From assembly GCA_025055115.1 (NCBI GenBank), contig JANWYJ010000014.1, positions 1-52,824 of the forward strand: a DNA stretch of 52,824 nucleotides. The letters run 5' to 3'. The first letter of the stretch is position 1; each line of letters starts with the position of its first letter. The stretch comes from Gemmata sp. GTDB taxonomy: Bacteria; Planctomycetota; Planctomycetia; Gemmatales; Gemmataceae. Shown piece after piece: positions 22,041 through 50,334 of the stretch. The translations under genes were made by a program, and so were the position numbers. The notes beneath the pieces were generated by a model. It was not told where the DNA came from and ran no database searches. It worked only from the letters and a program-made list of their open reading frames with translations.

Positions 22041-23453
22041 ATGAACAATCCTTTCCGCCATTTGCCGTCGATGACGAAGCTGCTGGAAGCGCCGGGCTTG
22101 GTTGCGGCGCGGCAGCGGTACTCACAATCCCTGATCACCGCGACAGCCCGGGCCGTTCTAGCGGCTCGTCGCGCTCAACTGGCAGCCGGCGCTTCGGGTC
22201 GGCTGGATGTCGATTCCCTGGTGGCGGACATTGTGGCCTGCTTAGACGCGCAGAGCCAACCGGCGCTTCGTCCGGTTATCAATGCCACGGGTATTGTTCT
22301 CCACACCAATCTGGGGCGTTCACCTCTTCCGGAAGAAGCGGCCCGGGCGGCCTATGAAGCAGCTCGTGGTTATCTCAATCTGGAATTGGACCTAGCCAGC
22401 GGGCAGCGATCGAACCGGCAAGACCCGATCCGGACCGAATTGCGGCGGCTGACCGGAGCCGAATCGGCCACTGCGGTCAACAATTGTGCCGCGGCGACCG
22501 TGATGGCGCTGCGGGCCGTGGCGGCGGGGCGGGAAGTGATTGTGTCGCGGGGGCAGTTGGTCGAGATTGGCGGCAGTTTCCGCATCCCCGAAGTGATGGC
22601 CACCAGTGGGGCGATTCTGCGTGAAGTGGGCACCACCAATATCACCCGGCTCAGTGACTACGAACGGGCGATCACGCCCCACACCGCGGCCCTGATGCGA
22701 GTTCACGCCAGTAACTACCGCATTCGCGGCTACACCCGGGCCGTGGCGCTCGAACAACTCGTGGAACTGGGGCATCGGCACAACCTGGTCGTTATCGACG
22801 ATGCCGGCAGTGGGCAGATGATCGATCTGGCTCCCTTCGGCTTCCCAGATGAGCCGCTCATCCCGGCCAGTGTCGCCGCGGGGGCGGACCTGGTACTTTT
22901 CAGTGGGGATAAGCTTTTGGGGGGGCCCCAGTGCGGCCTGATTGTTGGAAAGGCGGAACTGATTGAGAAGATCGAAAAAGACCCCCTCATGCGGGCTTTT
23001 CGACTCGACAAAATGACACTGGCGGCTCTCGAAGCCACGTTGCGGCTGTATCGTGATCCGGCATCCGCCCTGGCGGCCATCCCGACATTGCGGATGCTCA
23101 CCACCCCCGTTGTACAACTCCAAGCGCGCAGCGAAGCGCTGGCCGAGCGGCTCCGTGCCATTCCCGGCTTGACGGTGGACGTGCGCGACGCGGTGGCTTA
23201 CGTTGGTGGTGGTTCGCTTCCCGATCAGGCTATTGCAACGATTGTGCTGGCGATTGGCGCGTCACGGTGGAGTGAAAGCACACTGGCGACACGCCTGCGC
23301 ACCGGGAACCCCGCGGTCATGGCCCGCATCCAGGAGGGCCAGGTCTGGCTCGATCTCCGCTGTGTGCGGGAGGAGCAAGAGGAAGAACTGCTCGCAGCGG
23401 TTCGACAAGCGGTTCAAGAAGAGTTGCATCCGGCGAACAGTCCGGTACGATGA
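22041..23453 (+). CDS. selA: L-seryl-tRNA(Sec) selenium transferase
   Basis: 470 residues, PLP-dependent. SelA converts Ser-tRNA(Sec) to Sec-tRNA(Sec) using selenophosphate, so the organism is expected to make selenocysteine. Motifs: INATGIVLHTNLGRSPLPEEA, TAVNNCAAATVMAL, GQLVEIGGSFRIPEVM and the PLP lysine in LFSGDKLLGGPQCG; VIDDAGSG precedes it. Length fits the family (about 460). No selB, selD or tRNA-Sec gene is visible in this window. The start ATG 22041 follows the small membrane gene closely and may be co-transcribed. Its presence supports the selenoprotein at 46545. Confidence 0.94.
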   Translation: MNNPFRHLPSMTKLLEAPGLVAARQRYSQSLITATARAVLAARRAQLAAGASGRLDVDSLVADIVACLDAQSQPALRPVINATGIVLHTNLGRSPLPEEAARAAYEAARGYLNLELDLASGQRSNRQDPIRTELRRLTGAESATAVNNCAAATVMALRAVAAGREVIVSRGQLVEIGGSFRIPEVMATSGAILREVGTTNITRLSDYERAITPHTAALMRVHASNYRIRGYTRAVALEQLVELGHRHNLVVIDDAGSGQMIDLAPFGFPDEPLIPASVAAGADLVLFSGDKLLGGPQCGLIVGKAELIEKIEKDPLMRAFRLDKMTLAALEATLRLYRDPASALAAIPTLRMLTTPVVQLQARSEALAERLRAIPGLTVDVRDAVAYVGGGSLPDQAIATIVLAIGASRWSESTLATRLRTGNPAVMARIQEGQVWLDLRCVREEQEEELLAAVRQAVQEELHPANSPVR

Positions 23454-46514: not shown

Positions 46515-46544
46515 TCCGTGTCAGTTCTTTTTGAGGAATGACTT

Positions 46545-46886
46545 ATGCAAACGTGGCGTTTACCGGCCTTCGTTGTGGCGATCGGGTTCGCTATTTCCGG
46601 TTGTGGACCGATCGGCAGTCGCGAACCGTTGACCACCGATGGCCCCAATCAGGTCATCCTCCTGGTCCCGGGTATGACCTGAGCCACTTGACCGGCCACC
46701 GTGAGCAGTTCGCTCGCGACTCTACCGTGGGTAGAGAAGGGTTCAATCAAGACCGATGCCCAACGACGGCATGTGAAGTTCACCGTGACGGACCGAAGCC
46801 AATTCAACATGGACGAACTTCGGCAGAAACTCGGTTCCCGCTACAGTAGCGGCGTCCAACTGATTGCTGGGCCGACCGAGCCTTAG
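46545..46886 (+). CDS. Selenolipoprotein with HMA domain, UxxU metal motif (two in-frame TGA)
   Basis: 113 residues when both TGA codons are read through. MQTWRLPAFVVAIGFAISGC ends in a lipobox cysteine (C20), so it is an exported lipoprotein. Residues 37-105 follow the heavy-metal-associated fold: QVILLVPGMT, then U46-A-T-U49, PATVSSSLATLPWVEKGSIKTD, HVKFTV and a helix MDELRQKLG. In HMA proteins GMTCxxC holds both metal ligands, and TGA (46680-46682, 46689-46691) falls exactly on both. The frame ends at TAG 46884-46886. GAGGA (46533-46537) serves the ATG 46545. Conventional callers would see a 45-residue fragment. Likely a selenolate metal-binding lipoprotein; the metal and partner are unknown. 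Confidence 0.82.
46700..46718 (+). promoter_or_regulatory. Candidate bacterial SECIS hairpin 1
   Basis: CGTGAGC (46700-46706) pairs with GCTCGCG (46712-46718): seven base pairs including one U-G wobble, closed by a 5-nt loop AGTTC with G at loop position 2. The loop begins 24 nt after the first TGA and 15 nt after the second. Bacterial SECIS elements are small hairpins just 3' of UGA with a conserved G early in the apical loop, which this fits. It lies inside the coding sequence. Confidence 0.6.
46720..46736 (+). promoter_or_regulatory. Candidate bacterial SECIS hairpin 2
   Basis: CTCTACC (46720-46726) and GGTAGAG (46730-46736) form a perfect 7-bp stem with a 3-nt loop GTG, G at loop position 1. 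The loop begins 35 nt after the second TGA and 44 nt after the first. It follows hairpin 1 with one base between. The pairing could give each TGA its own element, hairpin 1 for U46 and hairpin 2 for U49; this division is inferred. Confidence 0.55.
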
Positions 46887-46954: not shown

Positions 46955-47626
46955 ATGCTGCCGAGTTTCGTGCGCCCCACCCCCCTGACGGATGCGCTGT
47001 ACGATTACGTTCTGCGCGTGGGGGTGCGCGAACCGGCGGCATTCCAGGCTCTTCGGGCCGAAACCGCGCAACTGCCCGATGCTGAATGGCAAATCGCTCC
47101 CGAACAGGGGCCGTTTCTGGCGTTGCTAGTTCAACTGATGGGGGCGAAAAAATGCCTCGAAATCGGCACCTTCACCGGCTATTCCGCAGCGTGGGTGGCC
47201 AGTGCGTTACCCCCGGATGGCCGGCTGATCGGCTGCGAACTGAACGAACAGTTTGCCACCATCGCACGCCGGCATCTGGCTGCGATGGGGCTTGGAGAAA
47301 AGGTCGAACTCCGCATCGCTCCGGCGGCCGATTCGCTCGCCGCACTTCTGGCTGCCGGTGAAGCGGGCACCTTCGACTATGCCTTCATCGACGCCGATAA
47401 GAAACAGTACGACCTGTACTACGAACGCTGTCTGGAACTGGTCCGCTCCGGTGGTCTGATCGTTATTGATAATACCTTGTGGGATGGCAAACCCGCCGAT
47501 CTGGCCGTCAACGATCCGGATACCTGCGCCATTCGTGCTCTCAATGCCAAACTCCATGCCGACTCCCGGATTATGCTCAGCTTGTTGCCGTTCGCCGATG
47601 GCCTGACTCTCGCTCTCAAGCGCTAG
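46955..47626 (+). CDS. Class I SAM-dependent O-methyltransferase
   Basis: 223 residues of the caffeoyl-CoA O-methyltransferase-like family. LEIGTFTGYSAAWVASALPPDGRLIGCELN (SAM site), the metal-site acid segment YAFIDADKKQYDLYYE and GGLIVIDNTLWDGKPAD match this family. Divalent-metal dependent methyl transfer to a catechol-type hydroxyl is expected; the substrate is unknown. GGAGGAA precedes ATG 46955. Its last 11 bases overlap the 3' end of ribD on the other strand. It follows the selenoprotein by 68 nt on the same strand. Confidence 0.92.
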   Translation: MLPSFVRPTPLTDALYDYVLRVGVREPAAFQALRAETAQLPDAEWQIAPEQGPFLALLVQLMGAKKCLEIGTFTGYSAAWVASALPPDGRLIGCELNEQFATIARRHLAAMGLGEKVELRIAPAADSLAALLAAGEAGTFDYAFIDADKKQYDLYYERCLELVRSGGLIVIDNTLWDGKPADLAVNDPDTCAIRALNAKLHADSRIMLSLLPFADGLTLALKR

Positions 47627-49335: not shown

Positions 49336-49409
49336 GGTCCCGTGGGCCAGTTGGAGTGGCCGCCTCCCTGTCACGGAGGAGATCGGGGGTTCAAGTCCCC
49401 TCGGGACCG
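49336..49409 (+). tRNA. tRNA-Asp (GTC)
   Basis: All four arms fold: acceptor GGTCCCG/CGGGACC, D-stem GGCC/GGCC, anticodon stem CCTCC/GGAGG with loop CTGTCAC giving GTC (49370-49372), and T-arm with TTCAAGT. The discriminator base is G, as expected for Asp. CCA is not encoded. This is the most normal tRNA of the array. Confidence 0.92.
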
Positions 49410-49507
49410 CTGTCGTGGTGCGGCACTGAAACGACCTTGGAAAGGTAATGCCGATGCTCGCGAGCATGACCTCGGGACCCCCGCCATTGTGTTGCAGGGA
49501 CACGACC

Positions 49508-49578
49508 GCGCCCATGATGTAACGGTAGCGTATCGCCGGGCCAAGGCGGATGTGTGGGTTCAATTCCCACTGGGCGCT
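49508..49578 (+). tRNA. tRNA-Gly (GCC) with G at position 33
   Basis: Acceptor GCGCCCA/TGGGCGC and T-arm GTGGG-TTCAATT-CCCAC are perfect, and U is the discriminator, as in bacterial tRNA-Gly. The anticodon stem TCGCC/GGCGG encloses the loop GGGCCAA, so the anticodon is GCC (49540-49542) but the universally conserved U33 is G. The D-stem relies on wobble pairs. Either a variant or a failing tRNA. No CCA is encoded. Confidence 0.68.
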
Positions 49579-49609
49579 AGTTCACTAAAAGGCCACACCA
49601 TGGTTCACC

Positions 49610-49684
49610 AGCACGGTACGCCAATTGGGTAGAGCGGCCAAGCTCAAACCTTGGAGGATGTGGGTTCGACTCCCACCCGTGCTA
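49610..49684 (+). tRNA. Class I tRNA with Leu anticodon (CAA)
   Basis: Acceptor AGCACGG/CCGTGCT, anticodon stem CCAAG/CTTGG with loop CTCAAAC giving CAA (49645-49647), T-arm GTGGG-TTCGACT-CCCAC and discriminator A. The variable loop is only 5 nt (AGGAT), while bacterial tRNA-Leu normally has a long variable arm. So the anticodon says Leu but the body is class I. The D-stem is short (3 bp). Amino-acid identity is open. Confidence 0.72.
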
Positions 49685-49708
49685 TGGCCTGGCCAGCCCG
49701 GGCGACAC

Positions 49709-49784
49709 GGTGATGTAGACCAACGGGGCAGGAGTCGCCACGCTCAGACCGTGGATAGTGTGGGTTCGAATCCCACCATCACCA
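49709..49784 (+). tRNA. Class I tRNA with Leu anticodon (CAG)
   Basis: Acceptor GGTGATG/CATCACC, anticodon stem CCACG/CGTGG with loop CTCAGAC giving CAG (49745-49747), 5-nt variable loop ATAGT, T-arm GTGGG-TTCGAAT-CCCAC, discriminator A. The D-stem is GAC/GTC. Same odd combination as the CAA tRNA at 49610 and the GAG tRNA at 49872, which suggests they are related copies. No CCA encoded. Confidence 0.72.
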
Positions 49785-49797
49785 CTGGAAAGAGAAT

Positions 49798-49865
49798 TGC
49801 GGATGGGCCGGCGCTCAACCGGGCCTCATAAGCCCTGTGGCGGGGTTCAACTCCCCGATCCGCAA
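49798..49865 (+). tRNA. Met-like tRNA (CAT) with collapsed D-arm
   Basis: Acceptor TGCGGAT/ATCCGCA, T-arm CGGGG-TTCAACT-CCCCG and anticodon loop CTCATAA (CAT at 49827-49829) are good. Only 20 nt separate acceptor and anticodon loop instead of about 24, so no proper D-stem forms, and the first anticodon-stem pair is C-U. Total length is 68 nt. It lacks the three G-C pairs of initiator tRNA. It may be a reduced or decayed elongator-type tRNA. Confidence 0.55.
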
Positions 49866-49871
49866 CTGTTC

Positions 49872-49945
49872 GACCGGGTAGGCCAACGGGCAGAGCCGGC
49901 AGGTTGAGAGCCTGTGGGGTGTGGGTTCGACTCCCACCTCGGTCA
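49872..49945 (+). tRNA. Class I tRNA with Leu anticodon (GAG)
   Basis: Acceptor GACCGGG/CTCGGTC (one wobble), D-stem GGC/GCC, anticodon stem GCAGG/CCTGT with loop TTGAGAG giving GAG (49906-49908), variable loop of 5 nt, T-arm GTGGG-TTCGACT-CCCAC, discriminator A. Third member of the class I Leu-anticodon group; shares the D-loop CCAACGGGCAG type with the CAG gene. Confidence 0.72.
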
Positions 49946-50045
49946 CAGGTTGATTGCCAGTCGCGGGTGGACGACAACAGCGCCTCGCCCGCATGGCCAC
50001 GGAGTTCGACTTCCCGCGACGCCACAACCACACTTTCCACAACTC

Positions 50046-50075
50046 GGATTGGATGATCTGGTGGATTGGATGATC
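50046..50075. repeat. 13-bp direct repeat in tRNA array
   Basis: GGATTGGATGATC occurs at 50046-50058 and 50063-50075 (17-bp offset) between the class I tRNAs and tRNA-Ser. Confidence 0.85.
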
Positions 50076-50094
50076 CTGATGCCACTGCGAGCAT

Positions 50095-50184
50095 GGAACG
50101 GGAGCCGGATACGGTTGGCCGGGCTGCGTTGCTAGCGCAGAAGCCCCTCGAGGGGGTGTGAGGGTTCGAATCCCTCCCCTTCCG
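50095..50184 (+). tRNA. tRNA-Ser (GCT)
   Basis: A 90-nt class II tRNA with long variable arm (GCCCCTCGAGGGGG-type stem), anticodon stem CTGCG/CGCAG with loop TTGCTAG giving GCT (50131-50133), T-arm GAGGG-TTCGAAT-CCCTC and discriminator G as usual for Ser. The acceptor GGAACGG/CCCTTCC has one C-C mismatch at pair 5. CCA is not encoded. Confidence 0.85.
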
Positions 50185-50261
50185 CTCAACAACAATCATC
50201 CTCGCCCATCCTCGCCGGGGGGAGGAACACGCAGCCGATTCCCAGATGGACACAACAACCA

Positions 50262-50334
50262 GCCTCGGTGGTGAAATGGATAATCATCTCACGCTTCGAA
50301 CGTGAGGTTCTAGGTTCAAGTCCTAGCCGAGGTA
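50262..50334 (+). tRNA. tRNA-Arg (TCG)
   Basis: Acceptor GCCTCGG/CCGAGGT (G-U at the end), D-stem GTGA/TCAT, anticodon stem TCACG/CGTGA with loop CTTCGAA giving TCG (50296-50298), T-arm CTAGG-TTCAAGT-CCTAG, discriminator A. Ends the array, 145 nt before the cytochrome/WD40 gene. No encoded CCA. Confidence 0.87.

Follow-up and report, generated by a model that had tools for sequence, protein, structure and literature searches.

Two in-frame TGA codons at the metal ligands of a Gemmata HMA-domain lipoprotein: a probable double selenocysteine site followed by two hairpins

Background

What is made from a gene whose frame for a metal-binding domain carries TGA at exactly the two codons expected to specify the metal ligands? 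The question is raised by a locus of Gemmata sp. in a stretch of 52,824 nucleotides that was analysed whole and is called the window below; it is one contig of a host genome of 4.9 Mb that is 98% complete. A first-pass annotation, made from the DNA letters and their open reading frames, had proposed that both TGAs encode selenocysteine (Sec) in a lipoprotein with a heavy-metal-associated (HMA) domain. Judged from sequence, our overall explanation is that the gene very probably encodes a lipid-anchored, periplasm-facing HMA metal-binding protein of MerP/CopZ-like type, in which both ligands would be selenocysteine.

Results

The gene and its signals were read directly and placed against homologues.

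46545..46886, + strand: HMA-domain lipoprotein gene with two in-frame TGA codons, 113 residues (direct reading and homologues)
46533..46537, + strand: Shine-Dalgarno-like GAGGA, 7 nt 5' of the ATG (direct reading)
46680..46682, + strand: first TGA, putative Sec 46, HMA ligand position 1 (direct reading, relatives)
46689..46691, + strand: second TGA, putative Sec 49, HMA ligand position 2 (direct reading, relatives)

The lipoprotein frame starts with the ATG at 46545 and stops at the TAG at 46884-46886. When TGA is read as a residue, the translation is MQTWRLPAFVVAIGFAISGCG...QVILLVPGMT-U-AT-U-PATVSSSLATLPWVE..., with zero further stops in frame, and the ligand cysteines of the HMA motif GMTCxxC fall on exactly the two TGA codons (46 and 49). 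Re-reading of the GAGGA, the lipobox ISGC and the coordinates agreed with the earlier description of a frame that is opened by a good ribosome site and a lipobox and runs through the TGAs to the TAG. The lipobox closes the N-terminal signal, FAISGC being residues 15-20 as judged by eye, and is supported by an alignment of 41 relatives in which G19 is nearly invariant and GC stands in the consensus. With Cys in place of U, residues 39-83 matched the Pfam HMA model PF00403 at 30.5 bits (E 4.8e-7), above its cut-off of 24.8, which upheld the claim of an HMA pattern with TGA on just the ligand codons. All 41 aligned relatives had Cys or TGA in both ligand columns. A consensus scan showed no site resembling a promoter or a terminator.

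The core of the AlphaFold model, a weak one (mean pLDDT 61, built on a 9-sequence alignment), shows the HMA order of strands and helices. With this weak model as query, the leading Foldseek hits were HMA domains of ATP7B, MerP and yeast Ccc2 (best E 5.3e-4), and a sequence search of solved structures returned copper-ATPase HMA domains and MerP.

A search at family level, with E<=0.01, gave 64 matches in 49 of 95 genomes; 50 Gemmataceae loci were read and 14 matches were left out. The codons at the ligand pair were TGA-TGA in 18 loci, TGA-Cys in 25 and Cys-Cys in 7 (n=50). TGA stood at one or both ligand codons in 43 of the 50 and at the second position only in none, and the spacing of the ligands was UxxU or UxxxU. 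The nearest relative, in a genome grouped in the same genus (G023), has both TGAs at identical codons and about 80% protein identity. No in-frame stop other than TGA occurred in the 50 matches read; among the 14 unread, one weak match holds TGA and TAG. In-frame TGA with Cys in homologues at the same codon, a hallmark of bacterial selenoprotein genes, is thus present here. The first-pass annotation had called for a search for homologues with Cys or TGA at the two positions, and the 43 TGA-bearing and 7 Cys-Cys loci are what it yielded. Stops scattered through homologues, which it had named as grounds for abandoning its reading, did not appear: TGA or Cys alternate just at the ligand codons in the 50 loci. 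Its argument that a pair of TGAs here is hard to explain by random decay also held, with both codons being TGA in G023 and one or both in 43 of 50 loci. Two further explanations were discarded: sequencing error or decay, in view of TGA at these codons in 40 genomes, and genome-wide reassignment of TGA, because TGA also terminates homologues.

In a tree of 48 of the 50 loci, 10 changes are needed between the class with TGA at both ligands (UU) and the rest, at least five of them forced by well-supported branches, and the second ligand has therefore switched between TGA and Cys repeatedly.

The search was also extended to the phylum, where 188 of 392 genomes matched, and 29 loci (of 30 given, the other being the window's own) and 20 stretches were read. 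These stretches held 28 distinct further TGA-bearing HMA domains, six with two TGAs, counted with a motif that has U or C at both ligands as a built-in requirement; duplicates and three chance frames were removed, and four matches that held TGA but did not fit the pattern (L074, L123, L126 and L141) went uncounted. Two loci (L077 and L094) carry two successive HMA domains in a single frame, each with its own TGA ligand, and at L140 (G481 C1) and L127 (G290 C29) HMA selenoprotein genes lie side by side. A contig search with the single window protein turned up one close relative and, at greater distance, 25 loci; going by a reading of the seven that were aligned, these are mostly MerP-like. On plasmids, tblastn at E<=1e-5 found no relative.

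In comparison with the nearest relative, dN/dS was 0.22 before the TGAs and 0.11 after them. Over nine pairs the downstream value ranged from 0.04 to 0.46; it exceeded the upstream value in three of the nine, yet was well below 1. By these ratios, the frame past both TGAs is under purifying selection. They bear on the possibility that the TGAs are true stops and that the locus is a decaying pseudogene or encodes a 45-residue lipopeptide. TGA does terminate other genes in these genomes, several homologues included, so there is no genome-wide reassignment to call upon; here, however, the TGAs are confined to the ligand codons of a frame free of TAA and TAG (50 matches read), selection continues downstream of them, and the hairpins described below are maintained despite synonymous drift. 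We regard termination as highly improbable.

Near-cognate tRNAs can read through UGA, and such suppression, inserting Trp or Cys at TGA, was weighed as a second alternative to Sec. The interchange of Sec and Cys at both positions argues against it, as do SECIS-like hairpins at SECIS spacing and the complete Sec machinery of the genome, and we find this form of read-through scarcely plausible. The machinery includes one gene in the window itself.

22041..23453, + strand: selA, selenocysteine synthase (open reading frame; match 22053-23405, 563.9 bits)

The best piece of selB in the host genome scored 352 bits, or 401.7 with the neighbouring piece in frame, over the cut-off; selD scored 390 bits; and tRNA-Sec (selC), with anticodon tca, scored 72.9 bits against a gathering score of 47. 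The genome thus holds selA, selB, selC and selD together, as expected of a bacterium that makes selenoproteins, and the absence of selB, selC or selD, which would have counted against the first-pass reading, was tested and did not apply. selB was matched at E<=1e-60 in 37 of the 40 genomes with a TGA-bearing gene; the three without such a match (G050, G077 and G082) are 84, 59 and 88% complete. selA and the selenoprotein gene lie about 23 kb apart on one contig, and six tRNA genes are clustered at 49336-50334 on the + strand. Sec insertion genes have been reported in G. obscuriglobus and I. pallida, in the available text of PMC4807772.

No ordinary HMA domain was found in the host genome by the Pfam model at E<=0.001, a model that responds in 13 of 14 control genomes; the same search also missed the window gene, so TGA-bearing HMA genes can escape it. 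With family profile A1, this genome showed no second copy: apart from the window gene, the sole match had E 1.3. P1B ATPases above their cut-off number four. Inspection of two of the four N-termini (L154 and L155; L157 and L158 were left out) showed, by eye, YHS-like or CPxCG-like segments at the start of these heavy-metal ATPases, and not HMA. Because these two begin with other segments, the selenoprotein may be the only HMA protein of its genome.

The gene neighbourhood was compared with those of 49 further loci of the family, searched over flanks that did not exceed about 1.5 kb.

46955..47626, + strand: O-methyltransferase gene (PF01596), neighbour; also adjoins the family gene in five relatives

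An O-methyltransferase lies near the family gene in five other genomes (L010/L096, L011, L013, L019 and L021), as does a divergent PPC-domain gene in five (L011, L012, L013, L019 and L022). A link between Sec use and the O-methyltransferase was considered and dropped, since this neighbour also adjoins a Cys form (L019). None of the six neighbouring genes scanned was metal-related or a mer gene.

Two hairpins follow the TGAs.

46700..46718, + strand: hairpin 1, stem CGUGAGC/GCUCGCG, loop AGUUC; 24 nt from the first UGA, 15 nt from the second
46720..46736, + strand: hairpin 2, CUCUACC-GUG-GGUAGAG, encoding part of TLPWVE with rare codons; 35 nt from the second UGA, 44 from the first

The published bacterial SECIS model, as given in the available text of PMC13188914, sets the loop at 3-9, the stem at 4-16 and the distance from UGA to loop at 16-37 nt, and places a G among the first two bases of the loop. 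At MFE <= -7.5, hairpin 1 conforms to it for UGA 1 (24 nt, -10.0 kcal/mol) and hairpin 2 for UGA 2 (35 nt, -8.0 kcal/mol); by the 16-37 nt range, hairpin 1 suits only UGA 1 and hairpin 2 only UGA 2. The hairpin 2 codons CTA and GTA are rare in the long frames of the window, at 3.2% of Leu codons and 7.1% of Val codons. Its exact 17-mer occurs 17 times in 95 genomes, all 17 within family genes, and the reversed control does not occur.

Compensatory pairs were seen in hairpin 2, for example GTCTGCC..GGTAGAC and CTTTGCC..GGCAAAG. Across 29 genes, chosen after the sequences had been inspected and all having 6 or 7 of 7 pairs and p<=0.05 in the codon randomisation given below, 97.0% of cells were paired, and seven cells showed double changes, where shuffles gave 1.1 and none of 500 came as high. 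When the partner strand was slid along, 33-55% were paired. Further pair types numbered 5, with 4.0 in shuffles (114 of 500 as high), and added no support. Three genes with 6 of 7 pairs and p above 0.05 (L037, L053 and L054) were uncounted, so a contrast in p between picked and unpicked single-UGA genes is circular.

Synonymous-codon randomisation gave p<=0.05 for the hairpin 2 window in 18 of 18 UU genes and for the hairpin 1 window in 14 of 18. Among Cys-Cys genes the same level was reached in 1 of 7 for hairpin 2 and 0 of 7 for hairpin 1, and the hairpin 1 window reached it in 5 of 14 single-UGA genes without hairpin 2. In genus g37, three genes (L019, L020 and L023) are Cys-Cys and neither hairpin beats synonymous randomisation in them; in L024, another member of this genus, TGA and hairpin 2 persist. 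The register of hairpin 1 shifts from gene to gene. In a covariation test of the canonical hairpin of 11 single-UGA genes, which hardly varies, 44 to 470 of 500 shuffles scored as high, so that shuffles were not clearly exceeded.

Discussion

The Sec genes, the TGA/Cys homologues, the SECIS-spaced hairpins and the selection downstream together support the first-pass reading of both TGAs, and we are highly confident that both would be decoded as selenocysteine.

How two such codons would be served is a finer question. For this gene, a separate SECIS for each UGA is conceivable, with a chance that we place somewhat below even. More tentatively still, closely spaced bacterial Sec codons in general may be read with a pair of staggered SECIS elements, the first UGA relying on hairpin 1 and the second on hairpin 2. 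SelB with Sec-tRNA would decode UGA 1 with hairpin 1 acting as SECIS; once the ribosome had moved 9 nt further, hairpin 1 would be just too near (15 nt), and hairpin 2, then 35 nt off, would serve UGA 2. Where hairpin 2 is carried, it sits 34-35 nt from the second UGA position at both UxxU and UxxxU spacing. It is present in all 18 UU family genes as compared with 11 of 25 single-UGA genes (Fisher p 6e-5, ignoring relatedness). A hairpin in range of UGA 2 only, at -6 kcal/mol or better, was found in 15 of 18 family UU genes and in five of six distant UU genes, where its sequence is changed in L093 and unrelated in L136. At that threshold of -6 kcal/mol, hairpins of both kinds, one in range of UGA 1 only and one in range of UGA 2 only, occur together in 12 of the 18 family UU genes, and synonymous recoding matched both in 0 of 200 trials for 11 of these 12 and in 1 of 200 for the other. 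Gene by gene, equally good UGA-2 hairpins arise in 0 to 73 of 200 recodings under this loose scan.

The other possibility, which we likewise place somewhat below an even chance, is that one SECIS (hairpin 1, or hairpin 2 in some genes) serves both UGAs, the remaining hairpin being accessory, for example a pause or spacer that raises efficiency. The distance from UGA 2 to hairpin 1 is 15 nt, a single base below the 16-37 nt range, and in L010 it is 16 nt. Of 25 single-UGA genes, 11 still have hairpin 2, four of them with compensatory changes (L011, L047, L057 and L058), and this weakens a strict model of one hairpin per UGA because a UGA-2 SECIS would be idle there. Hairpin 2 may be a relic of recent loss of UGA 2 in these genes, a reading that fits the scattered tree positions of several. 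The strict model is also weakened by UU genes without a clear hairpin 1: no G-loop UGA-1-only hairpin at -6 kcal/mol or better was found in three of 18 family UU genes (L016, L017 and L033), and the scan found no UGA-1 hairpin at that level in five of six distant ones (L130, L132, L133, L134 and L136). Hairpin 2 is weakened in three of 18 family UU genes (L038, L045 and L049), and the scan found neither hairpin in L134. A clade of 12 single-UGA genes (L028-L030, L035, L036, L040, L042, L044, L046 and L050-L052) does without hairpin 2, which likewise favours a single SECIS; in eight of the 12 a single canonical hairpin reaches -6 or better, its loop, of GUC or GGUC type, lying 22-23 nt from the UGA, and the remaining four have weaker hairpins only. 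Against a single SECIS stand the 18 of 18 and the distant UGA-2-only hairpins given above. In the open-access literature, covered mostly at title and abstract level, we found no description of a tandem or double SECIS in bacteria or of an HMA selenoprotein in planctomycetes. The reading with one hairpin per UGA, if true, would explain how a bacterial ribosome decodes two UGAs merely 9-12 nt apart, and would aid gene finders in spotting double-Sec genes.

The CxxC of MerP and Atx1-type domains binds soft metals, and selenolates bind such metals more tightly and in an acid-tolerant way. The UxxU pair would, by analogy, bind a soft metal, for example Cu(I), Hg(II) or Ag(I), and its selenolates would give tighter, acid-tolerant binding at an extracytoplasmic site. 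We judge soft-metal binding moderately likely to be the main role, and picture the protein as a scavenger or chaperone of soft metals that would act outside the cytoplasm through a selenolate pair. Outside the cytoplasm, where this protein is predicted to reside, thiols of metal sites tend toward oxidation, so a redox (diselenide) centre instead of a metal site was also considered. A redox function is attributed to most selenoproteins in the available text of PMC9312934 and PMC1088965. The fold and the place of the motif are nevertheless those of HMA metal sites, and the closest named families bind metal; a redox centre is, in our view, unlikely. In this family Sec appears to be a metal ligand and not a redox catalyst, and since the second ligand has changed repeatedly from one codon type to the other, TGA or Cys, there are natural pairs in which the contribution of Sec to an HMA site could be examined.

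Comparison with known proteins

CopZ/Atx1 chaperones and the HMA domains of copper ATPases have the fold and motif position of the window protein. They are Cys proteins on the cytoplasmic side; the window protein, in contrast, is a predicted secreted Sec lipoprotein.

MerP (TIGR02052) is likewise a single extracytoplasmic HMA domain, and MerP structures (1afi, 1osd) were among the top solved-structure matches of the window protein. The score of 35.3 bits did not reach the cut-off of 92.55, and membership was rejected; the window protein also differs in being lipid-anchored, with no mer gene among the six neighbours scanned. A Sec-containing MerP appears in the selenoprotein table of PMC2398784.

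The MerT/CopZ fusion-like heavy metal transport selenoprotein family NF045683 shares an HMA-type domain in a selenoprotein, but the window protein scored 14.2 bits against a cut-off of 375, and the match covers only 163-209 of 235 positions.

On sequence grounds, the nearest named family is NCBIfam NF041115 (UxxU_metal_bind), small HMA-like proteins with Sec at both ligands, which the window protein matched at 35.0 bits (E 1.1e-8). The curated cut-off is 95 bits, and membership was rejected; the match is partial (profile 4-55 of 74), and the window protein differs as a lipoprotein with a C-terminal part of its own. Among 41 relatives, 36 matched this model at E<=1e-3 (best E 2.7e-10), with a top score of 37.9 bits among seven scanned. 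A Sec-rich family of HMA lipoproteins that occurs in several planctomycete families is thereby added, one that scores under the cut-off of its closest NCBIfam model. In its available text, the 2026 review PMC13188914 catalogues UxxU proteins with two Sec together with UxxC P-type ATPase and MerT selenoproteins, and PMC9312934 holds an earlier list of the same sort; with double-Sec metal-binding proteins already catalogued (NF041115; PMC13188914), the rarity that the first-pass annotation had implied was overstated. The UxxU metal-binding selenoprotein is thus already known through NF041115, and what is new at this locus is the two consecutive hairpins after the TGAs.
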